From NCBI RefSeq assembly GCF_024713945.1, contig NC_134680.1:377001-441000 (forward strand): a stretch of 64,000 bases of DNA, written 5' to 3'. The position numbers and the translations under genes were made by a program. Every line of letters starts with the position of its first letter. The stretch's first letter is position 1. Under the pieces are notes generated by a model that was not told the DNA's origin, searched no databases, and saw nothing but the letters and a program-made list of their open reading frames with translations. Source of the stretch: Dermatophagoides farinae (taxonomy: Eukaryota > Arthropoda > Arachnida > Sarcoptiformes > Pyroglyphidae). Below, in pieces: positions 23,883 through 63,600 of this stretch.

Positions 23883-25075
23883 ATGATTAGCCATCGTGAT
23901 TATAAAGCTGGAGAAATAATCTCTGTTAATCCATCATTCGTACATGTTATTGTTGAAGATAAAAAGGGTAAATATTGTGATTATTGCTTGGCTCCAACAA
24001 CGTAAGTGTTAAATTTTATTTGAATTGGATTATTCATTTTCGTTATTTTGTTAACAGCGGCGGTGCTACTGCATTGGGCAAATGTAGCAACTGTAAACAC
24101 ATGTATTATTGTGGAAAAGATTGCCAACGAAATGATTGGAAACAACATAAATACGAATGTAAAATTTTCAAGAAAAATTACGAAATTATTACATGCGGAT
24201 TTGATCGAATCTTTTTACGGTTGTATTTGTTCGTAAAAAACAACCCTGAATGTGTTAATGAAAAGCAAAAATTTATTAACGATGAAAATTCAAACCGATG
24301 TTTCAATGATCTCCTTATGACAGATTGGAATCGAATTCAAAATGATTCATTTCGAATCAGGGATTTTGAATTTATATGTACAAAATTCCAATTTATGAAG
24401 ATTGAATTCAATCGCACAGTATTATTTAAATTTTTTTGTAAAACTTGCACCAAATTCTTTCAGATTACAAATTATGAACTAGAAGAAGTAGGCTCAGGCC
24501 TTTATATTGCGGAATCACAAATCGGTCATTCATGTACACCGAACAGTGCACCACTGTTCAATGGTAACCAAATTGTAATGCGTGCTATCAAACCGATTAA
24601 ATCTGGTACACAAATTACTGCCTGCTATGTGTATATAGCTGATTCAAGATATGATCGACAAGCAAAACTGGCTCAATACTTTGATATTACATGTGAATGT
24701 CAACGATGTAATTCAGTGGATTCAGTGAATTATCAATTAATAAAGGAATTTAATATAGCAATGGTTAACTTGTTTTTTGTGGACAAGTTCAAAGCTTATA
24801 AACTTGGTGTGGAAATACTATCAATGTTGCAATGGATTTCTACTGATTATCATCCGATAACAATTATATACACAATTTTTGTATTACAAATATGTTATGC
24901 AATTGCATTGGAAAATGGTGATAATGAACGTATCGGATTATCTGTTGCTGCAATGGCACAACATGTACGAATTGAACTTCCTGATGCATACAAAGAAATA
25001 TTTGAAAATACCTATTTTAATCAACCAGAAGATGTAAAAATCACCATTATGAAAGCACTGACAAATGTTCATTAA
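23883..25075 (+). CDS. SMYD-family SET/MYND protein, copy A
   Basis: Two exons, 23883-24001 and 24058-25075, with a 56-nt phase-2 intron; 378 aa. SMYD proteins are SET-domain lysine methyltransferases split by a MYND zinc finger. Seen: the SET N-lobe start RDYKAGEIISVNP, the MYND finger at residues 32-74 with the full C-x2-C, C-x2-C, C-x3-C, H-x3-C pattern (YYCGKDCQ, HKYEC), the SET core GLYIAESQIGHSCTPNS, and the post-SET cysteines in CECQRC. The family motif NHSC reads GHSC (196-199) and GEEL..SY reads GTQITACY, so methyltransferase activity is uncertain. The C-terminal helical region is shorter than in SMYD1-3, as in insect SmydA proteins. A poly(A) signal AATAAA is at 25213-25218. Its neighbour 1.75 kb downstream is a paralogue. 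Confidence 0.88.
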
Positions 25076-25633: not shown

Positions 25634-26826
25634 ATGATTAGCCATCGTGATTATAAAGCTGGAGAAATAATCTCTGTTAATCCACCATTTGTACATGCTA
25701 TCGATGAAGATAAAAAAGGTAAATATTGTGATTATTGCTTGGCTCCAACAACGTAAGTGTTAAATTTTATTTGAATTGGATTATTCATTTTCGTTATTTT
25801 GTAAACAGCGGCGGTGCTACTGCATTGGGCAAATGTAGCAACTGTAAACACATGTATTATTGTGGAAAAGATTGTCAACGAAATGATTGGAAACAACATA
25901 AATTCGAATGTAAAATTTTCAAGAAAAGTTACGAAATTATTACAGACGAATTTGATCGATTCTTATTACGGTTGTATTTGTTTGTAAAAAACAACCCTGA
26001 ATGTGTTAACGAAAGGCAAAAATTTATTAACGATGAAAATTCAAACCGATGTTTCAATGATCTCCTCATGACAGATTGGAATCGAATGCAAAATGATTCA
26101 TTTCGAATCAGCGATTTTGAAACTATATGTACAAAATTCCAATTTATGAAGATTGAATTCAATCGCACAGTACTATTTAAATTTTATTGTATAAGTTGCT
26201 CCAAATTCTTGAAGATTGTAAATTATGAACTGGAAAAATTAGGTGCAGGCCTTTATATTGCGGAATCACAAATCGGTCATTCATGTACACCAAACAGTGC
26301 ACAACTGTTCAATGGTAACCAAATTGTAATGCGTGCTATCAAACCGATTAAATCTGGTACACAAATTACCGTCAGCTATGTGAATATGATTGAATCAAGA
26401 TATGATCGACAAACAAAACTGGCTCAATACTTTAATATTACATGTGAATGTCAACGATGTAATTCAGTGGATCCAGTGAATCATCAATTATTAAAGGAAT
26501 TTATAATGAAACTGGATATCTTGTATCTTGTGGACAAGTTCAAAACTTATAAACTTGGTGTGGAAGTACTATCAATGTTCCAATGGATTTATACTGATTA
26601 TCATCCGTCATTAATTATATACAAAATTAATTTATTAAAAATATGTCATGCAATTGCATTGGAAAATGGTGATAATGAACGTATCGGATTATCTGTTGCT
26701 GCAATGGCACAACATGTACGAATTGAACTTCCTGATGCATACAAAGAAATATTTGAAAATACCTATTTTAATCAACCAGAAGATGCACAAATCACCATTA
26801 TGAAAGCACTGGCAAATGTTGATTAA
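25634..26826 (+). CDS. SMYD-family SET/MYND protein, copy B
   Basis: Two exons, 25634-25752 and 25809-26826, with exon and intron lengths identical to copy A; 378 aa. Same domain order: SET start, MYND finger (residues 32-74), SET core with GHSC, post-SET CECQRC. It differs from copy A at roughly 55-60 residues, clustered in the segment just before the SET core (copy B FYCISCSKFLKIV), after it (YVNMIESRYD) and in the C-terminal helices (IMKLDILYLVDK, YKINLLKICHA). The MYND finger is almost unchanged. The SET tyrosine region reads GTQITVSY, closer to the canonical S-Y pair than copy A. The reading frame is intact, so both copies look functional. Both may have diverged toward different substrates. 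Confidence 0.88.
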
Positions 26827-33892: not shown

Positions 33893-35485
33893 ATGTATGC
33901 ATCATTTTCATTTATTTATCAGCTCACATCATCATCACCATTGTCTGTGATACGATCATCATTTCTATTATCGATGATAATTGTAATGAATTTGATATAT
34001 CCAATACGAATGTTATCGAATAATGATGACAATGGCAATAATTCGATTCTTGTCAAACAACAGCAACTACAACACATGCATCTAAATAATATAATGGTTC
34101 ATATGGATAATACGGATATTGAAAAAAATTCGATAACGGCAGCAACACGAGCTAGCTCGATTAATATGACAACCACAACATTATTATCCGAAACATTAGA
34201 ATCGGTAGCGGCATTATTATTGTCCAAATCATCACCATCGACAACAAAATCTTTTTCATCATCATTATTATCATCAGCACCAAAATCAATATCGATAAAA
34301 GAACGTAATCGCCTTATACGAATGGTTGATAAAGTTGTAAAATTGGCAAATGAAATTCTTGATCTGAATTATACGACAACGGCAGCAGCTGATAATATGG
34401 CCATGTCGATAAACAATAATTCTGTGCAGGATTCTAATGAAAGAAATCTAGGTAAAACAATACCAACAGATTTATTTAATCCATGTCATTCAACAATTGA
34501 TGTTGATTTGATTCATCATATCGACAATAATTATCGATATCGATTAGATCATACAAATGAATTGATTGATAATGTCAATGATGGTGATGATGATGATCCA
34601 CGATTCAATAGACGTAAAAATCAAATTGGTTATGATCTTTTACAAGAAATGATTGAACGTTCGAATCATCTGAAAGGATTGGTTACCGATATGATTCGTA
34701 AAGTAAGTACATTCATTACTATCGATGTAGTCGCCCATTACTTAATGTTCATAATTTTTTTTACATTCGAATTTAAAAGAATCTTATAAAAGATTGTCTT
34801 AGACTTAAAATACCGAATATATTTCGATTACCAGATCCACCACATAATGTAAGTTTTTGATCGATAATTAATTGATTAAATGATTGATTGGTTTTTCGTT
34901 TTGTCCATATAGAATATGTCAAAATCGATGATTATAATCTATCAAACATTGGCAAATCAAACGGCACATTTATATTCATTATGGAATCAACATCGGCGAT
35001 ATTCGGATCAGAAACAACAAAATCCATTGAATGATTGTTGGTTTTATCGGCATCATGTTGAAATGATTGCAACGAAACAACAACAACGAAAACGACAACG
35101 ACAATCGAATACTGGTGATACGATGATACCGGGTTCGGTGGATAACCATAATGATGATGGTCAAACAATGGCAATTGCAACAAGAATAAAAGAAAAACGA
35201 TTAATGACACAAGAAAATTTCTTTGCCGTTAGTGATAATTTACGTAGTCTATTATGTTACCTGAATCAAGCAATACATTTGTTTCAAATACCAGTACCGA
35301 TTGAACAAATAATTCACCAGGTATTATCACATGGTATCGATTCTATCGAACGGCAACAACGATCCTGTTCAAGACAATCGATATTCGAATGTCAATTGAT
35401 GCGTGATGCTGTACAATTGTTGAATGATCTGGAACAATTTCTTCGTAATGAATCACATCGTTTTTTGGCAACAACGACAAAATAA
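33893..35485 (+). CDS. Secreted helical protein A, candidate four-helix cytokine
   Basis: Three exons, 33893-34702, 34780-34848 and 34913-35485 (introns 77 and 64 nt, both phase 0); 483 aa. Not recognised as a named family. Seen: an N-terminal hydrophobic stretch (about residues 20-38) as signal peptide or anchor; a 200-residue Asn/Ser/Thr/Asp-rich pro-like region; RFNRRK at 237-242, which fits a furin-type R-x-x-R site; then four amphipathic helix candidates, YDLLQEMIERSNHLKGLVTD, IIIYQTLANQTAHLYSLW, FFAVSDNLRSLLCYLNQAI and CQLMRDAVQLLNDLEQFLR. A Pro-rich loop (KIPNIFRLPDPP) follows helix one, and five Cys lie in the mature part. Length, helix order and the last helix resemble IL-6/CNTF-type long-chain cytokines. 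That is inference from pattern only. It is convergent with helical protein B. Confidence 0.75.
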
Positions 35486-36441: not shown

Positions 36442-37387
36442 TTAACATCTATTAGTAATTTCATCAGCATTATCATCACTACCTTTTGCATGATATATTA
36501 ATGATAATGAATTTTTTAAATCTTCAATATAATTTCTTAATACAGAACGATAACGTTGATGAAAACGTGACAATACAGCCGTATCAGTTAGGCCATTATT
36601 GGTTGTATGTGTTTTTAATTGTTGACATTCGTGTTCAAAATTTGCACAACGTGCAATATAAATTAATTTTTTAATAATATCCTCTTTTAAATGATGTAGC
36701 ACCTGTTCTAAACGTTCTAATTTGTTTAATTGTTTTAATTTTCTTTGTTTACGTTCACTTTCATGTAAATGATGATATAATTGTTGTTGATGATGTTGTT
36801 GTTGCTGCTGTTGTTGTTGTGGGCCACCACCATTCATAGTGTCATTGCCAATTGCATAATTTTCTTGCATCAAACTAAGACGATTTAAATGTTGTGTCAT
36901 TTTTTCAAAAATTTGTCTATATATTGATTCAATCTATATATATATAAAAAAATGAAAATGATGATTAGGGTGAAAATAGTGGCCAAAAAAAAAAAAAAAA
37001 AATGAATTCCATTGGGGTTTTTTTTTCTTCTATGGATCACACACGCACACACAAATAATTTCTGGTGCTATATTGCGCGGTGGCGAATTTTGAAAAAAAA
37101 CTGTTGTTAAGAATTCAAAAAAAAATTTCTTTTTTTATTCTTTTTTTACTCTCTCTCTCTCTCAAAGATCAGATTCTCAACAACAACAACAGGAAAAAAA
37201 TTCCAGTTTGTCAGTTAAATCTCGGATTACATAAAACACAAATCCATGACATCCAAAATGTTATCATTATAATCATCATCCATTGGTTTGTTCCATCAAA
37301 AATCATCCATAAATCCAATATAATCTATACACACACGTAAAGGTGTCATATGTTCTTTTTTTGTGGATTTGTGTGTGTAGGGGGTAC

Positions 37388-37701: not shown

Positions 37702-38687
37702 GTCTACCCATTTATCAGTTTTCAGATTGTCTGGTTGAATAAAAATTGGTATTTTTCACCACACACAATTCATTACTTACCGGATTTTTGTTTCCATTAT
37801 TATTTTCATTACGTTTTTCTTTTTGATTCTGATTCTGATGATGATGATGATGGTGATGGTGATGTTGATCCAATTGATTATTATTATGATGATAACGTTT
37901 CCATAATATTCTTATACTTTCATCATGATCACCATTTTGTTGTTGTTGTTGTTGTTCATAATCTAATAATCTATTTGCATCATCATTGTAACCACCATTA
38001 CGTGGATAATTATTTCTATTTCTATTTCTATTTCTATTTTCATTGTGATATGGAAAATCTTTTTCAATCAAATCATCGGTCACTTGAAATGTACCGGTAG
38101 TTGTTGGTGATGATGGTGGTGGCTTACGAATATGGCCACTATTTCGTTTTGATTTATCAGCATCCTGTGTGTGTTTGTGTTTATTTGGTTGATCATGATA
38201 AGTAATGTGAAAATAGACAATTTTTAATCTATACTTACAGGTAATTGATTATAAACCAAACAAATTGAATATTGAATATAAGTTTGTAATTCTTCACTTA
38301 ATCTAGTACGATTACAAAGGGTACTGCCACCACCAGCGCCACCACTGGCACCACCACTGGCGCCACCACCACTATTACCAAATTGTCCCATACGTTTTAA
38401 TATTCCTTTTGATTGGCAGCTATAGAATAAATTTTCATAACGTAATTCTGGTGGCGATGATGATGACGATGATGATGGTGATTGATCAATCATCGGTATC
38501 ATTTCAATCATTGGCATCATTGAACGATGATCAACACCAAATAATAGCCAACAATAAAATGTATAGAATATTAATGGTAAAAATGATGATAAAAATCCTG
38601 ACAATAAACGATAATAAAAGGGTTAAATTTCATTTTTTTTTTTGTTCTTACAAATTTTACTTAAAACTTACTTTGAAATATTTGCAT
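36442..38687 (-). CDS. Secreted helical protein B, candidate cytokine-like partner
   Basis: Four exons, 38687-38672, 38597-38239, 38164-37781 and 36933-36442; introns 74, 74 and 847 nt; 416 aa. Not recognised. Exon 1 encodes only MQIFQ plus one base; exon 2 completes a strong signal peptide (FLSSFLPLIFYTFYCWLLFG). Exon 2 ends in a helix (EELQTYIQYSICLVYNQLP). Exon 3 is pure low complexity (Asn/Arg, Gln, nine His) and is 128 codons long with phase 0 at both ends. Exon 4 carries helices IESIYRQIFEKMTQHLNRLS, LEQVLHHLKEDIIKKLIYI and YRSVLRNYIEDLKNSLSLIY, with Cys in ARCANFEHEC and at the C-terminus. The layout (signal peptide, about four helices, disordered inserts) parallels gene A. The 847-nt intron is the only long finished intron in the window. 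The splice model is by eye. Confidence 0.68.
37391..37423. repeat. (AC)n microsatellite in intron 3 of helical gene B
   Basis: 33-nt uninterrupted AC tract within the 847-nt intron. Confidence 0.85.
37664..37691. repeat. (CT)14 microsatellite in intron 3 of helical gene B
   Basis: 28-nt CT tract, followed by interrupted TCTG units to about 37705. On the transcribed (minus) strand it reads GA, about 90 nt after the exon 3 donor. Confidence 0.8.
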
Positions 38688-41600
38688 CCTGATTTTTTTT
38701 TTCTTTGACTAGGAATTTTTTTTTTTTTTTTTGTTCAGAAAATTTCAAACAATAAAAACGGTTGTGAAATTTCGATTGAAAACAGAACAAAATCAAAATT
38801 TTTTTTCTTCTTCTTGTTTCGATCGAATATCAAAATGAATTGTATTTAAATTCTCGAGGAAATTCTGTAATTCAATTAAAATATTTTTCATTTATTGTTG
38901 TTGTTTTTTTGTTGCAGAATATTATTGGCGGAAATAAAAGTGTTAATAACACTATGTGTGTATGGATGATGATTGATCGTTTGATGAAGAATGGAATGTT
39001 TCAAAAAAAAAGAACCAGAAAATAAATGATGACAATTCCAAACCAAAAACAATATCGGTATTTATATATAAAAAAAAGTGAGAAAATTTTTTTTTTCACA
39101 TGATTATTATCTACGTTTTACACACACACGCTTATGATGATGTCTGCTGCTTTATATAATATAATCAGGCATTATTGCCGCAATTTTTATTTCAAAAAAA
39201 AAAAAAAAAAAATTTGTCGGAAGCTGCTGCTGCATTTTTATTTTGACAAAAAAAAAACAATCTGGTGACAAATTGATGACAATGGTGATAAAAAGGTGGA
39301 GCCAAAGATTGATTTTAATTTTGTTGTTGTACACAACACAACCATTGTTGCATTGTTGATCGCAGAAACTTTGGATCGAATGAAAAAAAAAATGAAAAAT
39401 TTTCTTCGTTGGATTATTGTTCTGAACAACAACAACAACAAAAAGATGAGAAACAAAAGAATATTCTTAGGTGCCGGGTTTTTATCATGATTTAAAAGTA
39501 GGTGGCACTTGCCATTGTAATGCTGGTGGTGGTGTTGGCGATGATGTCGGTGTTAACAATGGTAGTGGTAAAACTGAAAAAAATTCACGTTCCAAAAGGA
39601 TTAACATGATGTTGATGGTGGTGGGCGTGTATTTGGCGATGATGATGATGATGACTTCAGATACGTCAAAAGGTTATTTGGAAATTCTTGTTTTTTTTTT
39701 GAAAAAATTTTATTTTCTGATTTTTTTTTTTTTTGTTTTTGACATTAAAATTTTTTTCACAAATCAAAGAAAAACAAAACAAAAGAAAATTTTCGTTTGT
39801 GCTTTTGTTTTCTTTTTTTTTTATTTGTTATTTAAAAAATTCTGGATTTAAAGATTAGATTATTTCAAGAGATGAAGAGAGAGAAGGACAGAATATTCTG
39901 TTGATAAGCCAAGTGATTATCTGGTGGAAAAAAAGAAAAGATTTTTGCATTTTTTTTCACCAAAAAACCCAAAAATAAAGTAGGAGTAGACGTCATTTGT
40001 TGTTGTTGTTGTCGTTGTCGTTTTTGTTGTTGTTGTGGATATAATTTGTCAACATGATCATCATTCTTTCCATTTTTAACTATCAAATCATCCAGCAAAA
40101 AACAAAAAATAAAAGAATTCAATCGAATGAAAGAGAAAAAAAAATGTTAAAGAATTTTTCCGCAATCAAATTCCTTGAATAATGGTGATGGTGATAATAA
40201 AAATAGACATGATAGATATGTCACAGAATTATGATTTTTATACGTAAATCGATTTGTGATCAATACTGGAGATGTCAAGGATTATTTCCGGTTATGTTGA
40301 ACACACACACACACACACACATAAACAAACACGTAATGGATGTGGTCTTTGATCATTTCAAATCGTAATGGCTCTGTTTTGTAGATTGTTACAATCAAAT
40401 CAAGCAACAAGTGTTGTTGTGTTGTTTGAATATAATTCACATTTGTTCATAAACTTTATTCTTCTCTAATCAAGTTGGTTTCATCGCTGCTGATTGGTGA
40501 TTCAGTCACTGGATCGTGTGTGCATACACACACACACACTGAACTCTATGGTATTGCAATAATCATGAACAAGAGTCAATCACACACTGTGTGTGTGTGT
40601 CTGTTGCGAATGAATATATACATACCGCCCCAAAAAAAAAATGAAGAAATTTTTGAATGAATGAAATCAGCTCAATCCAATTCAATTTAATGAATGAATA
40701 TGATACACCAATGAGAGAGAGAGAGAGAAAAAAAAGGCTAATAAACTTATTGGCATTGAGATTTTCTCTGTGTGTCTCTGTGTATAAGAAAATAGCGTCA
40801 ACTTTTTTTTCGTTGTTAAACAAAAAAAAAACCAAAATGAATCTTCAATTCCATGTCCAACAACAGATATAGGATGGCGAAATAGGAGAAAAAACATTTA
40901 ACCCTTTTATTTCCCGATTCAAATCCGGATTAAATAGTGTGCAACAACAGCAACAAAAATTCATTGATTAATTAGATTTTTAATTATACACAATTTCAAT
41001 CAAGTCTAGTGATTTTTTTTGTTCGAATTTTCTCTCGCAATCGTTTGAAAATTCAGGAATTGTGGTCATGGTTGTCATGTTTTATTTTATTTTATTTTTT
41101 GATGCTATTTCTGCAAAGAAAAATGATGAATTCAATTCTTGGAAATGGAAATATCCAATTCAAGAAAAAAAAAGGTTAATTACAGTCTATTTTTCTTTCT
41201 CACACACTTTTTTTATCGAATTTTTCCTGAAAATTTCCCACTTTCACACCCACAACATCAGATGGGCGTTTTCAGTCATTCACATATATATTGATATGTA
41301 ATGAGAATCCGATTTGTAATGGTATGTAGAATTGATTGATTGATTGATTCAAACGGTAACAGAACTAACTTGTGATCTGTGTGTGTGTGTGTGTGTGTGA
41401 AAAAATTCCAAGAAATCCAATCATTTCAAGACAAAATCGCTGTTTTTATGTTGTTTTTTGTTGTTGTTGTTGTTGTTCACTTAATAATAAAAAAAAACAT
41501 CCTTCATCATCATCATCATTTCGTTGAACTTTGGCCCCATTTTTTTTTCTTCAATGTTTTTTCTTTTCGTAAACGAGAGATTGTCGTAATAAAAACAAAC

Positions 41601-44600
41601 GACGACCACAACAAAAAAACGAATTTTATTTCATTTCATTTCATTTTTTTTTTTTTTGATGTTCCAAGAATTTGTTGTTGAAATCAATATACTATAGATG
41701 CGAATTGAAAGTGTTAATACAAGGGGATGGGGGGAGGAGGCCAATATCAAATGTGTGCGTGTGTCAATGTCTGTTGTTTTTGTTGTCATTATAGGTTTCA
41801 AATAAACAAACAAACGATCTTGATGATGATGATGATGACGATTTAACAATTTTTTTTTTTTTTTTTTGAATCGAACACCATTATATGCTCTGTTTGTCTC
41901 TCTCTCTCTCCTTGTAAATGCTTATCAAACAAAAAAACATAGGCAGGCAAGCAGGCAGGCAGAAGGCGTCGTTCTTTTGGCTTTTTGGCATTTTTAGTTT
42001 TCTTGAACAAATGAAAAATCGGCGTCTTTTTTGTTGTTGTTGTTTCTGTTGTTGCTGTCGATGGTGATGAATAATCCTTGCGGTCTTTGACTTTTTTTTT
42101 GTAAATTTCCCGATTTTTTTTTTTTGGTTCAATTTCATTGTCATGATAACCAAAGCAGAGAGAGAGAGAGAGAGAGCTTAACACTGTGTGTGAGCACATC
42201 AAACAAGCTGCTATTTAATCACCGATGATGATGATGATGATGCTGAACGAAAGTTGGGTCCTGGAGAGAGAGAAAAGAAACGAAAAAACCCATAAATTAC
42301 AACACTACTACCACCATCCGATATCAAAAGTTTATCAGTTTGGTTTCTTTTCTATTGTATATTTCATGAAATGAAAGATGCGGACGATGACCCATTAATA
42401 TAATAATAATATAATGTAAAATGGTAAGCACGCGTTACGATTTTGTTAATTTCTTGGAAAAGTAAAATTTTCCTCTCTTCTATCTTCAAGTTTCTTTCAA
42501 AAAAAAAGAACTGATTAAAATTGATCCAGGTTTTTTTTTCTCTGCTTCAGATTACATCCATGAATGATCGATGTTTGAAATGAAATGAAATGAAAAAATA
42601 AAACATACCGTTTACATGGAAGTAGTCGTAATAAACACCTGGCATATTTTTATCCAAAAAAAAAAAAATTTAGATTTTTGGATCGATCCAAAAATTTCCG
42701 ATTTTCTTTTTACCGTAATCACACCCGTTTGTTTTTTATTGTTGTTGTTGTTCCGAGCCTTTCTTTTTTTTACCGTTAAATAAATTGAATGATTTTTTTT
42801 TCATGGGAAAAATTCCCGGTGGAAGAATTTAAGATAAAAACAAAACAAACAAAAAGAAAATTTCCCAAACAAAACAGAATCCATTTCCGTATCATTTATT
42901 GAATCATCATGGTACACGACAGAATTTTATTTTATTCTCTTCTAAACACACATAGAATTCAGAAAAAAAAATCTAAGAATTTTTTTTTCAAAAAATTTTC
43001 TTTCCGGGAATATTTCCCTAGAAAGTTTTATTTTTGATTTAGTAATGATTTCATTTTTCGGATATCCGACAACCACTTAGATGTTGATGTCAGTGCGTTG
43101 GTTTTTATCATTTTTGTTTGCAATAATAATCACTTTATGATGATGATAATCTATTTGATATAAAAAAACAAACACACTCGCATACACACGGACACATTTT
43201 ATTGAATCTGGTAGTTTGTTTGTTTTTTTTTTATTGATAAAAACAATTGAAGATCACTGGATACAAACAAGCAGCTAACCAGCCAACCAACTACTGCATG
43301 TTAATGAATTTAGATTCTAACAAAAAAAAAAAAATTCTTCATTCATGTTTTCAATGTAAAAGTATAAAGAAAAAATTGAGCAATAAAAGTTGCAATTACA
43401 TCATTTATGACTCATTCATATTTTATTCTGTATGAGAATGACTCATCTATCATTGTGTTCAGTGTGTGTGTGTGTGTGTGATTCATTCATCAATTCCGCT
43501 GCAAATACACGCACACATTTGGTTGATTGTTTGACATAATCATAAAATTGTGATTTTCCTGTTGATTATGGCACGTAATATTTGTTGATCATACACACAC
43601 ACACACACACACATGTACAAAATTCTTTCTTTTTTTTGTGCCTCATTCACTAATCATTCAGATTAGACAGGTTAATCTCTTAAATTGACAATAATAATCA
43701 CAAGAAAATCACTTTAAATATTTTTTTTGACGTAATCAATAACAATGTTTTTTTTGTGCGGAAAGATCCACTCAAAAAAAAAAAAAAAAAATACCACCGG
43801 GTGATACACACAGGTAATTTTTGGATGATTTGTAAACGAAAAAACAATTTCAATTTTACCGTTACACTGATGACACACTCGCACACAAACAGGTGTGTTG
43901 AGGGAGGGAAACAATTTTTTTTTTCCACTGTCCCTGTTTACCTGTTGATTGTGTGTGTGTGTTCGTGACCCTAAAGGGGTAATAAAAAAAAACTTACCAG
44001 GTAATGTGTTTTTGTAACCGTTATACAATAATAATAAAGTTAATGTTTAAAAGCCTAAAGCAAAATAATAATATGACATAACATAATACTGACCAAAAAC
44101 CGTTATTAGACTGATTTCGATTGATATCTTATCGATTGATTCATCTGTGTATGTGTGTGTTTGACCTAGAGAATGATTTTTTTTTCTGGCTGAAGGTCAT
44201 TGAAAACCCTGAAACTGTGCATATGATGATGATTATACAACCTAGTGAGACCTTGACATTTTTTTTTTCTTTTTTTACAGAATGGGTTATATGTTGTAGG
44301 AAGAAGAAGAAGAAGAAGAAGAAGATCAAGAAGATGAACCTTTGAACAAATGAACAAAAAAAAAATTTTTTTGGTGCCTCAAACGGTTGTCGTAGTCCAT
44401 TTGGTATTATTCACCTATGCCATATTCATCATATGGCACACACAGAAAAAAATGTTCGTTTTCGACTTTTTTGTCGAAATTCATTTGTTCATCCGACATA
44501 TTTTTTTTTCCTGTTTTTCCACGAATTTTGTTTTTTTTGCTTTTTGTTTTTGTTTTGCATTCCTTTATTATTTTTTTTTAAATAATATATAGTGTCAATT

Positions 44601-45532
44601 GTCGAAATTTTTTTTTTTCTTCTTCATTTTGGTCATTTTTAATGGTGGTGGTGGTGGTGGTGGTGAAAACAAAAATTACTGGTAGTTAAATACTGGCCTC
44701 TCTCAATCTCAAGAAAAAAAAGATCACAAGACCACCGGCCCGACTTGTAACATTTTTTTTTATTCATCACCATCATCTTGAAAAACAAAACATAACATTG
44801 AATCAAGTGTGTGTGCGCGCGTTTGTTTTGTTGGTTACACATAGGAACATAAATCTTGGTTTTTTGTTTTTTGTTTCAAAGAATCGATATTCATTCAATG
44901 ATGACACATTCAATGGACCATAAGATGAAAAACGAAGAAAAAAAAACGGTCAATTGATATTTGGCTATGGTGGTGGTCTTTTCATCATCATCATCGTCAT
45001 CGTTTTTTTCGGTTTTTTTTTTCGTTTCATTGAATTGTCGAAGAAATTTTTTTTTTTTCAAAACAAAAAACCAATTCACCATGAAAAAAAAGAAAGGTAA
45101 TAAATAACCGGACTTGTTGGTGGTTGTGGTGGTAACATTTATTTTTTTTTCTTCTTCAAAACATTGTCTCTGGAGAGATGAGTGGTTCTTTTCATTTTTT
45201 TTTCACAATTACAAAATGAAAAAGTTTTCTGGAAATTTAAAAAAAATTTAATCAGGAAAACTTCCCCGGCAATCTACTATGTTGTCGGCTGTTATATAAA
45301 TCAATCATCTGTTTATGGTGTGTTTGTGTGTGTTTTTTTATTTTGTTGCCATTTGTGCTGGCCACATGGTTTTTTTATCTTTGTAAAATTATTACCAATC
45401 AAAATGACAATCAACTGATCCAAAAGAATTTGATTATTGTTTGAAGAAAATTAATCTCCAATAAAAAAAAACAGTCTCTGGGTTTTTGTTTGTTTTGTTT
45501 GTTCAATTGGATTACAAAAAAAAATCCATTGA
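38688..45532. other. Gene-free region between helical gene B and FAM136A
   Basis: Nearly 7 kb without a supportable exon. It contains (CA)n at 40303-40320 and 43592-43612, GT at 41379-41398, GA runs at 40713-40728 and 42156-42176, and many A/T homopolymers. Two 13-nt near-palindromes GGGAA-N3-TTCCC occur at 42805 and 43006. It may hold the upstream control region of gene B. Confidence 0.55.
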
Positions 45533-46049
45533 ATGATGGCCGAAGAAGCACAGAAACGTGTACAAGCCGAAGTGAATAAATTTCTAACAAATTTAGATCA
45601 AACATGTTTACGTAAAATGCAAGTACAAATGTTTCAATGTTCAGCAAAATGTTGTGAAAACAACAATGCATCAATGGAACAAGTGGCCAGCTGTGTGGAA
45701 GATTGTTCATCAAAATTTCGTAAAGCACAAAGCTATATATCGAATGAAATGTCTGGATTTTTGGTAAGTTTTTTTTTCTTTGTTTGTTTCAGACGAAAAT
45801 TTTTCTTAATTAAAACCTTTTTTTCTACTTTCACATGATTAGAAACGATTAGAACGTTGTGCATTACAATGTCAAGATCAGATACATGATCAAATGAATG
45901 CCGATACTACTGATGATCAAATGAAACGTTTTGAATCGCAATTTGAATCCTGTGTAATACGTTGTGCCGATGATACCATTAAAGTGATGCCTGATTTATT
46001 TCGTAAAATAAAAGGAATTATTGAAAAAGAAGCTTATCATAAAGCTTGA
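45533..46049 (+). CDS. FAM136A: FAM136A homologue, mitochondrial twin CX3C protein
   Basis: Two exons, 45533-45763 and 45843-46049, with a 79-nt phase-0 intron; 145 aa (human 138). FAM136A is a small mitochondrial intermembrane-space protein of unknown precise role. Seen: four C-x3-C units, CSAKC, CVEDC, CALQC and CVIRC, in the family order; LDQTCLRKMQVQMF before the first pair; RCADDTIKVMPDLFRKIK near the C-terminus. There are two adjacent start codons (45533, 45536); the second gives MAEEAQKRV, the usual family start. A poly(A) signal AATAAA lies at 46349-46354. Confidence 0.95.
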
Positions 46050-47494
46050 TTTGTGAAAGTAAAATTTTACATTCACCACCTCTTTAAATCAAAATTATTA
46101 TTTCGTATAAAGAAGACAAAAAATCACACATCATCATTATCATCATCATCATCATTCCTTATAAATGTAGAATATTCCTGCACGTATAGCAGCAACTATA
46201 TATGTATATATAGTTGATGGTTCCTCTGTGTGTAATGAATATGTAGAATTGACAAAAGAAATGACAATCAAACACACACACACGCACCACCTCCAAATTG
46301 AAAATTTTTGATCAATTCTATTAATATTTTTTCATTCGAAAAAAAACAAATAAAATTTGCGTGGTTTCCCCCCCACCCCCAAAAAAACGAATTCTTTAAT
46401 TAAACAACAACAGCAACAACATTGACAGGAAGAATTGAATTTGGAAATTTTTTTTAAATAAATTCAAATCAATATGTGGCCTACGCTCTGATGTGTTTTG
46501 AATCTGATTTTATGGATTTTGGCAAAATTGATTTGGTTCGAATAGTTGTGGTTTTCTTTTTTTTTTTTTGGTGCAAAAAAAAGGTGTTGGCGTTTAATCT
46601 GCTGTCGTGCTTCAAAAAAAAAAATCACGATTGATGATGACATTTGTCATCGATTATTAATCAATTTTGCGTGTGTGTATGCGTTTTCAACAACCAACTC
46701 ATCACTTTGTTTTTTTTTACGAAAAAAACAATTGAAACAAAAAAATTTCTTAATTTAATAAAATTAAAAAAAAAATAGTATCGATAGTATCGCTTTGAAA
46801 AATATCGATTATTCGAAGCCGAATGATATTGTTGTTGTTGTTGTTGTTTTTTATTGTTGTTTGGGCGTCGATATATTTGTTGCTAATATGATGATTGCAC
46901 CAAAAAAAGCCAGCCAGCTTGTTTGTAAGTTCGACAAAAAATAACGACAATTTTTTTATTCATTCATTCATCTTGGCAATCACAGATTGACAGAGCAGGG
47001 AAATAAAAAAAATTGTCAAACCACCACCGTTAGAGCAACTCTCGATCAACGATCATTCATTCAAGTAATAATCCGATTCAAAAAAAGCCAAGAAACAACA
47101 TCCATCCATCCACCCATCCACATGTAAGTATATATGAATTATATTAGAAATTCAAGTCATCAACATTCAAAGTTTGACGTCTTGAATTTTTTTTTCTTTT
47201 TTTTTGGCTCAATTTCAATTTCAATGACAAAAACAAGAAAACATTCGATTGCCTGTTGCTTTTTTTTTTGTCTTTCAGTGGATTGCTTTCGTAACAAACC
47301 AAGAAAAAACTTTATAATTACACCCGAAAAACAAAACGAAAATGAAATCCACTTATATAGCCGCCTATTAGTCTATAGTCGTTTTTTTTGTTCACTCACT
47401 AAAAGTTTGTTTGTTTTTGTCATTTTCATTGTGTAGATTGAATAGAAAACCAAGTGACGAGCATCAGTAACAACAACAACAATACCGAAAAAAA
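46050..47494. other. Spacer FAM136A / WDR1
   Basis: FAM136A 3' UTR to about 46370, then the WDR1 promoter region. It contains a TATCGATA octamer at 46779-46786 followed by a second ATCGAT at 46803, a C-rich stretch at 46368-46380 and GTT/CAA triplets. No exon seen. Confidence 0.5.
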
Positions 47495-49541
47495 ATGTTT
47501 CAAAATCGTAAGTTTTCTGGAAAGATAATGAATGCTGATGATGTCATCTATTTTTTTTGTTCGATGTTTAGGTAATACTTTTGCAACATTACCACGTACA
47601 CAACGTGGTATGCCACTAGTGTTGGGTGGTGATCCAAAAGGCAAAAATTTTCTTTATCCAAATGGAAATTCTATTATCATCAGGGATATTAATAATCCAG
47701 CTTTGGCGGATATTTATACTGAACATTCAACGACGACAACAGTGGCAAAATATTCACCAAGTGGTTTTTATATCTGTTCCGGTGATATTGGTGGACGTAT
47801 ACGAATATGGGATACAACGCAAACAGAACATATTCTAAAGAATGAATTTCAACCATTTGCTGGTAATATTAAAGACCTGGCATGGTCACCGGATTCACAA
47901 CGTATTGTTGTTGTCGGTGAAGGCCGAGAACGTTTTGGTCATGTTATTATGATGGAAACCGGTACCTCGGTTGGTGAGATTGCTGGACATTCAAAAACGA
48001 TTAATTCATGTGATTTTCGTCCAGCACGCCCATTTCGTATTGTAACCGGTTCGGAGGATAATTTTGTCGGCATTTATGAAGGTCCACCATTCAAATTTAA
48101 AACACAGCTAGAAGATCATAATCGTTTCGTGCAAAGTGTACGTTATTCACCGGATGGTCAATTATTTGCAACGGCTGGTTTTGATGGAAAAATGTTTCTC
48201 TATAATGCTAATGATTATAGTAAACAAGGTGAATTCAATGTTGGTGATGATGGAAAAAAACCTGCACATGCTGGTGGTATTTATGCCATTTCATGGTCAT
48301 CTGATGGTAAACAAATTTTGACCAGTTCTGGTGATAAAACTTGTAAGATTTGGGATGTTTCAACATTTACTGCCGTTACGTAAGTGGTGATTATTAATGG
48401 ATTTGTTTTTTCATTTTGAAACTTTTTCTCTTCGTTTATTTGGCAGCGAATTTCCAATGGGTTCAGATGTATTGGATCAACAGGTTAGCTGTCTGTGGCA
48501 AAACAATTATTTATTATCCGTTTCGTTATCTGGTTTTATCAATTATTTGGATGTAAATAATCCAACAAAACCATTACGTGTTGTAAAAGGTCATAATCGT
48601 ACAATAACTGCATTAGCTATTAACACTGTTTCTGCGGATCAACAACGTCTTTATACTGGCAGTTGTGATGGTTATATAACACATTGGAATCCTCAGAATG
48701 GTGAACATGATCGTATCGTGGGCCGCACACATACAAATCAAGTTAGTGGTATGGTTTTCGATGGCGATAATCGTATCTATAGTGCTGGTTTTGATGATAT
48801 AATCCGTACGATCGACGTGAATACAAATGAATTTATTGGTGAATTTAAACTCGATCAACAACCACAAGGATTAGCATTAAGTAGTGATAAACAAATCCTG
48901 TTCATCGCTTGTCATTCACAATTACAAGTAAGACGTGCACATGATGGTGGCATTCTTTCAGTGGTGACAGCACCATATGAACCATCAAGTATTGCTTGTA
49001 ATCAACAAACTGGTGACATTGCTGTCGGTGGTAATCGTGATAGTAAAGTACATGTCTATAAATTTGATGGCCAAAAATTGAATGAACAATCATTCACCAC
49101 ATTGGATCATCGTGCTGGTATAACAGATGTCGCTTATTCACCAGATGGAAAATATTTAGCCGCATCGGATCAGAATCGTAAAATTATTCTATATAACAGC
49201 AACGATAATTATCAACTAGCTCATGATCTAGAATGGGGTTATCATGTGGCACGTGTTAATTGTTTAGCATGGTCACCAGATTCATCCTTATTAGCATCTG
49301 GTAGTCTTGATACCGGTATTATTATCTGGGATTGTGTTAATCCAACCAAACATTTTACACTTAAAAGTAAGTTTTTTTTCAAATTGTTTATTTTATTAAT
49401 AAAAAAAAATTTCGTTTATCATAATGTGTAGAAGCACATCCACAAAGTCAAGTAACACGTATCGCATGGCTTAATCAATCGACCATTGTATCTACTGGTC
49501 ATGATGGTTCAATAAAAATCTGGGAAATTAAATTAAAATGA
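47495..49541 (+). CDS. WDR1: WDR1 / AIP1 actin-interacting WD-repeat protein
   Basis: Four exons, 47495-47507, 47572-48379, 48447-49366 and 49432-49541 (introns 64, 67 and 65 nt); 616 aa (human 606). AIP1 works with cofilin to disassemble actin filaments; the Drosophila gene is flare. Seen: [14 protein letters not shown] and [12 protein letters not shown] near the start, [20 protein letters not shown] as WD unit one, then a run of WD repeats forming two seven-bladed propellers ([58 protein letters not shown]; final [13 protein letters not shown]). The first exon encodes only four residues plus one base, placed by the splice pattern, so the extreme N-terminus (MFQNR) is the least certain part. 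Confidence 0.96.
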
Positions 49542-59747
<10,206 letters not shown>

Positions 59748-60634
59748 ATGTTTCAAATGTTGGAAGAAATAATGTTAATGATATTCATCATCATGATTAT
59801 TGTGATACAAGTAACAACAACAACGGCAACGGCAACAACAACAACAACAAAATCGCCATTGACCAAAGAAACAGCCAAACAAAATGTGATTATCATCAAT
59901 AATCCATCATCATCATCATTATCATTAATGGATAATGATCTAATTGTTCATTTGAGCAATAATTTTGATTCTGATCATGCGCATTATAATATTGATAAAC
60001 AAATATTGATGAAAAAAAGAAAAAAGAGAAGAAGAAAAAGAATTAACACTGTAACTACCATCAATGATGATGATGATGATTGGAATAATTATTTATTATT
60101 ATATAACGATAACGATGAAAATGATGATGATAATGAAAATATTTCATCAATAATTTCATCAGCCGCATCTTCTGCATCTGCATCTGCATCTGCATCATCA
60201 TCATCATTATTATTATTATCACAATTACCAAGCTCAAATCACCATAATAATCGTAATAATAATAAAAACAAAAATAATGGATTGGATGAAAATTTCATTG
60301 AAAATCATGGCAATATGAATTCATCTATTTCTGTGAATAATAATAATAATAATATTACATCATCATCATCATCAATTTTATTGTTTAATGATGATGATGA
60401 CATTGATTTTGATATGGATTTATTATCAACAAAATCGACAACAACAACAACAACAACGGATGATGATGATGATAGTCTATGGTCATTATCAAGTACAGAA
60501 ATTGCATTACGTTTAATTGGTGCAATAATATGTATTGCATTGATAATTGTGACCATTGTTGGCAATGTATTGGTTATTATTGTTGTTGCACGTTTTCATC
60601 GTATGCGTACAGTAACGAATATTCTGCTTGCAAG
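59748..60634 (+). CDS. Class A GPCR, first coding exon (partial)
   Basis: One exon of 295 codons plus two bases, ending in a consensus donor (GTAAGT at 60635). The 3' part of the gene is not found in the remaining 3.4 kb, so it must lie beyond the window. Seen: an N-terminal hydrophobic stretch (MLMIFIIMIIVIQV) that may be a signal peptide; an ectodomain of about 225 residues rich in Asn, Ser, Asp and Thr with many N-glycosylation sequons; then TM1 (residues about 252-283) with the class A hallmark GNVLVIIVV (Asn 1.50) and the intracellular loop RMRTVTNILLA. MRTVTN after TM1 occurs in peptide receptors such as CCK/sulfakinin and orexin/allatotropin types, so a neuropeptide receptor is likelier than an amine receptor, but the subtype cannot be decided from TM1. 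Confidence 0.82.
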
Positions 60635-63600
60635 GTAAGTTGTTTGTTTGTTTGTTTTTTTACATCATGGAAATTTGATACTTGTTTTCTTCGGTTCCAA
60701 TATTTTTTTTGTTGTTGTGCATCTGGGCAATGAAAATATTGAAAAACCAACCCGCACACAGAAAATTCTCTGTTTTCGTTTGTTTGACTTTACAATTTTC
60801 TTGAATTATTTCCAGGTGTTTTTTTTTCTGTTTTCTGTGTGCAGCCATTGGTTTCTGGTTAGTTATTATTCCCAGTTATGCCAATCAAAATGAATCTGAA
60901 TCAAAAAAATGTTTTTCTTCCTTGAAAAAGTGCGAGTTTTTTTTCTGTTTGTTTATCGAACGAAAAAAAAATTCAATGCATCCCTTTTCCATTTTTTTTC
61001 TCTCTCTCTCACCATTGATTTATTCGTGAATGAATATAGCTCAGCTTCATTGGCTAAAAAAAATTCATTATTTTTTTTTCTCTTGTTCATGAATATTAAA
61101 ATTAGCTATGGTTGAAATGTTTGTTGTGAATAAAAAAAAAATCAAAAATCATTAACCGTTTTCATTGTTCATTCTTGTTGGAATTTTAAATTTCAAAAAT
61201 TTCTTTTTTTTTATCACCATTTTTTTTCTCTATGGAATATTCGTGTTTGGAATTTTTTTTCTTTTTAGAATTTTAAATTCACCACACACACACACCAATA
61301 CTTGTATCGATTCATTGATTTTTATCAATCGATTTTTGATCTCTGGTGTAGCAAAAATTTTAAAATAATGAAAAAAAAACACAGAAAATTCATTCGAAAA
61401 CAATTAATTTCAATTCTTGTTGTTGCACTATGTAAACACACACACATGCAGAATATGTTAATCATTTATTCAGCGATTCTTGAATGTAAAATTCGAAATT
61501 CCATTTCCTGAAATTCTTTATCTTTGTCGTTTTTTTTTTTGTTATTCCTTTTCCGTTTGTTAATGTTTTTTTTTCTTTTCATTTATTATTGGAGATCAAA
61601 CACTAAGAAAAAAAAACACTGCGATCGACTTGATGAAAATGACAAAACAAAATGCACTTAGGAAAATAAATAAAAAAAACACACACACACACAGACAGAC
61701 AGTCAGACGTGTCTGATAAATCAACCGACCAACAATTGAAACCAGAAAAAAAACATCATCATCATTATCAATTGAAAATTGAATCGAAAAAAAAAGATTT
61801 CAAATCCTAATGATGATTCAATCCAATTCATTTAATTGAAAAAAAAAGAATGAAAGAATCACATTGAAATTCATGAACTTTAGGAACAAATTGATTTTGT
61901 GTTATTTTTTTATAATTTGTAAATGTGATGGTACAACAGAAACGAAAACGAGAAAAAAAAACAAGATAAGATAAAGATAAATCAACTTGTAACTCAATGA
62001 TAAAAAAGGTTTTTGTTTTTTGGCGAAAAAAATTTTTTTTTTCATCATTTTCTGCTGACTTTTTTTTCCTCTTAATGGCAGATTGTATTATTGAGAGTGG
62101 ATCCGCGTTCATTGGATGTTTGATCTTCTAAATGTTTTTTCTTCTTCTTCTTCTTCTCTGGGTTTAGGTTTAGGTTTTTTTTTCATTCTTTCTTAATGAT
62201 GCTAAGATAAGCAAAAAAATGATGATGGTGATGGCTATATATAGACCATGAGAGAGAGAGAGAGAGAGTGAAGCGAAATTAAATGGTTTTTTGTTGTTGT
62301 TGTTGTTGGCCAGAAATCTTGTAGAATAAAATGATAAAATACAGTGGTCTGGTGTGTGTGTGTGGCCATAGATCATCATTGATTTAAATTCAATTCTCCA
62401 ATGGAATCATTTTCGACCAAACCCAAAAAATTCTTGTGCTGTTTGATTTGGTCGATTTTTTTTTGTTCCATACCATTACCATTGCTTTGTTTTTGCTCGA
62501 TATGTCCATTTTTTTTATTTTTTGTTCATTTCACAATCATTCGCAGTCCATTTATTTTTTTTTTTTTTTTTTTTGTTGTTGTTGTTGTTGTCTGTATTTT
62601 CAGTTGTGATTTAGCAATCCAGAAAAAGAATCGATGATGATGATGATGAAACCGGGCGTTATTATTGATCAACAATCGTGCATTTTTGGTGAGAAAAAAA
62701 TTGATTGATCATTATCGCCAATGAATTTTGTTTTGTATTTGCATTTTTTTCCCCAAAAAAAACAAACAAACGAAAACGAAAAACGAAAAACAAAAATCGA
62801 CCAAAATCGAAAAAAAATGCTGATGATGATGATTGTTGTTGTTGTTTTCGATTGATCATCAAGAATCTAAATTTCATTTTCGTTTGTCTTTTCTTTTTTT
62901 TCTCTTTCTTCAAAAGATTTATTTTTCTGTTTATTTTTCAATCATTCGATTGGAAAACCTGATGATTTGGCTGATTTGTTCGATACACGATAATGATGAT
63001 GATGATCATACTAATCGAATTCTTAAATTACAAAGAAGAAAAAATTATTCTTGAATTGAATTTTTTTTTTTTTGGACAGTATCAGCAACGACAAACAAAA
63101 TGTTGAAAAAAAATCACATTAGTATTCAAAATTCAATTCTGTGTATCGATCACAGATTCTTTGTCGTCGTTGTCGATTTTTTTTTTGTTTTCATTCATAA
63201 ATTCTGATCATGAATCATTTATTCTTGTATATTGGCAATTTCATTCAAGTCAAGTTTTTTTCTTCATTCAAATGGTCAAAAAACGTTTTTTTTTGCATAT
63301 TCTTCTGGATCCAAAATTCCAATCGTGATTATTATGATCCAAATTCTATGTATATAGAATCTCATTTCACACACACACGCATCATCAGTGTGACATTTAA
63401 TAGCAGAGAAAAAAAAGAGAAGAATTTTGTTTTTTTTTCAACTAATCAATCATTCAATTTTTGACGACAACAATGAAATTCTAAAAAATGAATTCAGAAT
63501 ATTCAGACAATGACAGAAGCGATGATGATGATGATGAAATTCTGCCGATTCGAATGGATGAACATTATGTCTCCTATGGCTGGTTGGTTGGCTGGTTGAC

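Follow-up and report, generated by a model that had tools for sequence, protein, structure and literature searches.

Does the gene at positions 33893-35485 (+) of the window, the whole 64,000-nucleotide stretch analysed here (C4:377001-441000 of the 62.4-Mb Dermatophagoides farinae genome), encode a helical cytokine, and could it act as a ligand of the mite JAK-STAT pathway? Passages of PMC12027997 and PMC7962413 describe ticks and mites as carrying Domeless, JAK and STAT, with the ligand reported as unidentified. The former refers to 'an as-yet-unidentified ligand' for Varroa, Ixodes, Galendromus and Tetranychus (D. farinae is not in the species set as given there), and the latter states that Upd 'is missing' in ticks. 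Among the open-access entries listed by our literature search, none reported an acarine Unpaired or the 33893-35485 gene. The analysis below presents the gene product as a candidate cytokine that can be tested rather than one that has been demonstrated.

Gene structure and the convergent neighbour

The predicted joins link three exons into a single 483-residue frame through two GT-AG introns of 77 bp (intron 1) and 64 bp (intron 2), both in phase 0 and both with GTAAGT donors.

33893..34702 (+): exon 1, residues 1-270, with the hydrophobic N-terminus, the pro-region, RFNRRK and helix A; donor GTAAGT
34780..34848 (+): exon 2, residues 271-293; completes helix A and carries the Pro-rich loop; acceptor AAG
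34913..35485 (+): exon 3, residues 294-483 plus the stop codon; carries the other helices

The 3' end of intron 1 is AAG rather than YAG, and of the usable acceptors listed, this one (34779) alone maintains the frame from exon 2 into exon 3; a transcript without exon 2 would also stay in frame. The stop-to-stop frames span 304 and 190 aa, compared with a longest ORF of 148 aa in 20 mononucleotide shuffles of the window. Under a codon model fitted to ten long ORFs of the same genome (9,769 codons), the annotated frame scored 0.16 in exon 1 (other same-strand frames, -0.54 and -0.58), 0.178 in exon 2 and 0.134 in exon 3, while the two other same-strand frames ranged from -0.36 to -0.80 across the three exons. 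For the 69-nt exon 2, one opposite-strand frame was also positive (0.148). Because the exons join in frame and each is best coding in that frame, 33893-35485 is, on these sequence signals, a real coding gene. The joining of three exons in one frame described in the earlier note is thus borne out, with a positive codon score in all three, and we infer that they are spliced in this way in vivo. An own-genome search with exon 3 matched only itself at E up to 0.001, so that no second copy was found.

On the opposite strand, 0.96 kb downstream and convergent with this gene, lies a second gene (38687-36442, -) that would encode 416 aa from four predicted exons, with intron phases of 1, 0 and 0.

38672..38687 (-): neighbour exon 1, 16 nt, with a phase-1 intron behind it; too short for a codon score
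38239..38597 (-): neighbour exon 2, rest of the signal-peptide-like segment, Gly/Ser-rich stretch and helix A; codon score 0.356
37781..38164 (-): neighbour exon 3, low-complexity loop with phase-0 introns on both sides; codon score 0.286
36442..36933 (-): neighbour exon 4, helices B, C and D; codon score 0.247

The neighbour protein has a signal-peptide-like start and Gly-, His- and Gln-rich runs. The amphipathic moments of its helices A, B and D were reached by 0.023, 0.018 and 0.009 of shuffles, respectively, while that of the long helix C was not above shuffles (0.306). In both genes, the loop that follows helix A is flanked by introns. The two proteins displayed no similarity to each other (domain score 47 vs 41.6 +/- 7.0; exon score 33 vs 37.3), and it is from layout only that they may be kin. 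Searched against its own genome, neighbour exon 4 returned itself and five weak rows (E 0.05 to 8.3). In the roughly 8.8 kb upstream of the neighbour (38700-47500), coding signal was confined to a short low-complexity stretch at 39474-39590, making this a possible regulatory region.

Elsewhere in the window, a Pfam scan of ten ORFs gave matches for 7, including HSP90, nicastrin, an L-type lectin, a prolyl oligopeptidase and a TRM5-type methyltransferase, none of which hints at the function of the 33893-35485 gene. The window also contains a group 2 allergen gene, matching Der f 2 (PDB 1ahk) at 119/120 residues, which identifies the species as D. farinae. Two tandem 364-aa ORFs (23981-25072 and 25732-26823, +), the second with zf-MYND and SET matches, are identical over their first 50 residues and represent either a recent duplication or an assembly duplicate. 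A further ORF (59745-60635, +), for which Pfam gave no match, has a long Asn/Ser-rich N-terminus followed, by eye, by a GPCR-like first transmembrane helix and then a donor site.

Receptor, JAK and STAT in the same genome

A survey of fn3 domains (148 rows) led us to a gp130/Domeless-type receptor gene.

C8 about 3623127-3627141 (-): gp130/Domeless-type receptor gene

The layout of this gene comprises a signal peptide, an Ig domain, C-x9-C-x-W and C-x11-C-x-W motifs and YWSDM, then more fn3 domains and a transmembrane segment; Pfam found no enzyme domain in the long tail that follows. In a search with its first 347 residues, IL-31 receptor alpha matched at 2.7e-11 and gp130 at 3.3e-9 (residues 37-336). 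Class I cytokine receptors (IL31RA, gp130, IL13RA2, IL12RB2 and IL23R) made up 24/29 rows at E up to 0.01, the other five being titin (3), Dscam and obscurin. The gene was not picked up by the Pfam IL6Ra-bind model, and its 877-aa putative downstream exon, taken alone, had receptor phosphatases and the insulin receptor as its best PDB rows. The genome also encodes a JAK-type FERM_F1 domain (31.3 bits, cut-off 26.1) adjoining a FERM_F2 match just under its own cut-off, and a STAT (STAT_alpha, 99.7 bits). The JAK-type call is based on these adjacent FERM_F1 and FERM_F2 matches. By sequence matches, then, the receptor, JAK and STAT that such a pathway presupposes occur together in one genome.

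In gp130, LIFR and G-CSFR, the Ig domain contacts tall four-helix cytokines. Because it does so, a long-chain helical ligand would be expected, by analogy, to be encoded somewhere in the D. farinae genome. This ligand may, however, be a protein other than the 483-aa one. The tick receptor Dome1 reportedly responds to a host protein. According to PMC5645147 and PMC9195186, arthropod Domeless can be activated by non-Upd proteins, in crustaceans a C-type lectin coiled coil and peroxiredoxin 4; the mite protein differs from these in having no lectin or peroxiredoxin Pfam match.

Features and relatives of the 483-residue protein

The spliced product combines a low-complexity N-terminal half with a C-terminal half that is predicted, from sequence and the structure model, to be helical (residues 243-483). 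The segments considered are as follows.

33947..34006 (+): N-terminal hydrophobic segment, residues 19-38, by hydropathy; signal peptide or signal anchor
34298..34366 (+): residues 136-158, an amphipathic segment inside what was called the pro-region; moment 0.57 (0.016 of shuffles as high)
34601..34618 (+): RFNRRK, residues 237-242, minimal R-x-x-R site; near chance
34622..34702 (+): putative helix A, residues 244-270; moment reached by 0.024 of shuffles
34916..34996 (+): putative helix B, residues 295-321; AlphaFold2 helix, no more amphipathic than its shuffles (0.315)
35210..35284 (+): putative helix C, residues 393-417; AlphaFold2 helix, shuffle share 0.013
35300..35359 (+): additional helix lying between C and D, residues 423-442; AlphaFold2 helix, shuffle share 0.024
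35381..35458 (+): putative helix D, residues 450-475; AlphaFold2 helix, shuffle share 0.026

As the earlier note had it, there is an N-terminal hydrophobic segment, at residues 19-38, with the most hydrophobic 17-residue stretch in a hydropathy scan beginning at residue 19. The protein is probably secreted, although 18 residues ahead of the segment and Arg at 21 and 39 make it atypical as a signal peptide. In the disordered pro-region proposed to follow, residues 43-136 and 159-236 have a high content of Ser, Asn, Thr and Asp, but between them lies the strongly amphipathic stretch 136-158. The supposed furin-like site is present as RFNRRK at 237-242, but of the furin-type motifs R-x-[K/R]-R and R-x-x-R, RFNR/RK fits the minimal R-x-x-R only, and the protein contains 3 R-x-x-R matches against a shuffle mean of 1.96, which is near chance. 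Cleavage at RFNRRK is putative. The C-terminal half carries five cysteines and three N-x-S/T sequons.

Helix moments were compared for 14 segments with hand-chosen bounds, each against its own shuffles, and the shares are uncorrected. Four amphipathic helices had been claimed; A, C and D are indeed above shuffles, but B is not, residues 136-158 and 423-442 are amphipathic as well, and more than four helices are predicted. An AlphaFold2 run on exon 3 alone, from a single sequence and without helix A, gave six helices (2-28, 42-66, 84-94, 100-124, 130-149 and 157-188 in exon numbering) with a mean pLDDT of 57.8 (37 to 42 in the remaining four models) and a pTM of 0.44. With helix A of exons 1-2, the total again exceeds four. 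Residues 335-356 form a helix in the AlphaFold2 model, yet their moment was reached by 0.949 of shuffles. The Pro-rich loop said to lie past helix A was found, carried by exon 2 (IPNIFRLPDPPHN). The best Foldseek matches of this low-confidence model were HIP1R and talin, and the matches are to generic bundles that include the mite helical allergen Der f 21 (E 0.49); VIA-align placed designed proteins first.

Sequence and profile searches did not identify a cytokine relative. Exon 1, exon 3 and the spliced protein all stayed below the cut-off of every Pfam model, residues 243-483 had no match among PDB sequences at E up to 10, and the CNTF and IL6 profile models found no relative over cut-off in the whole genome. 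The Unpaired model (PF15972) gave no row for the spliced protein at E up to 10 and nothing over cut-off genome-wide (best E 1.03, on another contig, C6), as was also the case in 14 control genomes. In a local alignment with residues 243-483, human CNTF scored 29 vs 32 +/- 5 for shuffles, a score equalled or exceeded by 0.522 of 67 control mite chunks, and the two helices D were not paired. The resemblance of the last helix to helix D of CNTF asserted in the earlier note is thus no better than chance. We accordingly set aside filing the gene as Unpaired, given no PF15972 match over cut-off, or as CNTF-like, given a similarity not above shuffles. The profile and sequence silence itself carries little weight, because human CNTF used as a PDB query (E up to 1) retrieves just two CNTF sequences and three chance-level rows; genuine cytokine families, too, would be expected to miss one another in such searches. 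Relatives of exon 3 were also sought in genomic and viral contig collections (23 and 2 pattern-matching stretches, respectively), and those of neighbour exon 4 in viral contigs (600 stretches), with none confirmed.

The Drosophila upd genes are clustered, and the mite has two neighbouring genes. In its proposed role, the mite protein would resemble Unpaired (Upd1-3) of Drosophila, a secreted helical ligand that acts through a gp130/Dome-type receptor on JAK-STAT, but it differs in lacking a PF15972 match over cut-off, the Pfam model being the one means of this comparison. With the IL-6 family (IL-6, CNTF, CLCF1 and LIF) it shares putative helices of 25-27 residues and a Pro-rich loop after helix A, and differs in its possible N-terminal pro-region and, for CNTF, in showing no sequence similarity above shuffles. 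CNTF and LIF have FxxK at the start of helix D; the mite helix D likewise starts with Phe (SIFECQ) but reads FxxQ. Helices B and C of IL-6-type cytokines are joined by a short loop; those of the mite protein are about 70 residues apart. The extra helix ahead of helix D has a counterpart in IL-6, for which passages of PMC7378365 describe a short helix within the CD loop.

Intron layout offers a further parallel. Passages of PMC2654155 report that IL-10-family genes, IL3, IL21 and IFNL1 have codons left unsplit by the introns between helices, and that IFNL2/3 have a phase-1 intron after a tiny first exon, with phase-0 inner introns. Both mite genes likewise have phase-0 introns between helical parts, as is usual in class I helical cytokines, and the neighbour shares the tiny first exon and phase-1 intron of IFNL2/3. 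In contrast to the interferon-lambda/IL-10 family, the two mite genes each encode helices B-D in a single exon, with fewer introns in the helical part. This layout is weak as evidence because phase 0 is common generally.

Candidate ligand and alternatives

On the specific mechanism that we favour, the 483-aa protein would be a highly diverged class I helical cytokine, secreted, with its helical half at 243-483 behind a low-complexity N-terminal half; it would bind the mite gp130/Domeless-type receptor and so signal through JAK to STAT. It would then be among the tick and mite ligands that the literature describes as unidentified, and its convergent neighbour would be a second. A coding gene, the amphipathic helices A, C and D, an exon 3 predicted to be helical and a genome in which profiles find no Unpaired all speak for this reading. 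Against it stand the missing cytokine similarity, six exon 3 helices instead of three, the wide spacing of B and C, a B no more amphipathic than its shuffles, a model resembling generic bundles, the near-chance R-x-x-R, the atypical N-terminus and the dissimilarity of the neighbours. Neither of the earlier note's specific arguments, a furin site and a CNTF-like helix D, exceeds chance. The circumstantial case is nonetheless stronger than it was there, because the genome has a gp130-type receptor, JAK and STAT, plus an adjoining second helical gene. We infer that the protein may adopt a four-helix topology and bind the receptor; that it is the ligand seems to us a reasonable possibility, though less likely than not. 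The wider proposal is doubtful: that both convergent genes are the missing acarine ligands of gp130/Domeless-type receptors, members of a cytokine family diverged past sequence recognition, one with a cleavable pro-region, whose receptor has kept a gp130-like Ig domain.

We rate slightly higher, though still under even odds, a residual class with no single mechanism, in which the gene encodes some other sort of lineage-specific secreted helical protein (an extracellular or gland protein, or an allergen-like bundle) whose cytokine look comes from common amphipathic helices. The lack of a family match, the low-complexity N-terminal half, the extra helices and the generic bundles among the structure matches, Der f 21 included, would all suit such a protein, but a gp130-type receptor in the genome should have a ligand, and both the intron layout and the pairing with a neighbour are in keeping with helical cytokines. 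The unusual N-terminus raises a separate and rather improbable option, a type II membrane-anchored or non-secreted protein in which the hydrophobic stretch at 19-38 acts as a signal anchor or is there by chance, and RFNRRK either serves for shedding or has no meaning. Here the long stretch ahead of the hydrophobic segment and the flanking arginines are joined by the finding, by eye, of no clear cleavage motif beyond the segment, while the five-cysteine, three-sequon C-terminal half could be extracellular either way. Least probable by a distance is a small-peptide precursor, with dibasic sites (RRK, KR and RKR) releasing short signalling peptides and the helices incidental: several such sites are present, but by eye there is neither a repeated peptide nor a Gly-Lys-Arg amidation pattern, and amphipathic helices of such length point to a folded domain.

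If the ligand reading of the 483-aa protein is true, helical cytokine ligands exist in chelicerates. The candidate gene pair, together with the receptor gene, makes the question of the acarine ligand directly testable in a major allergen-producing species.
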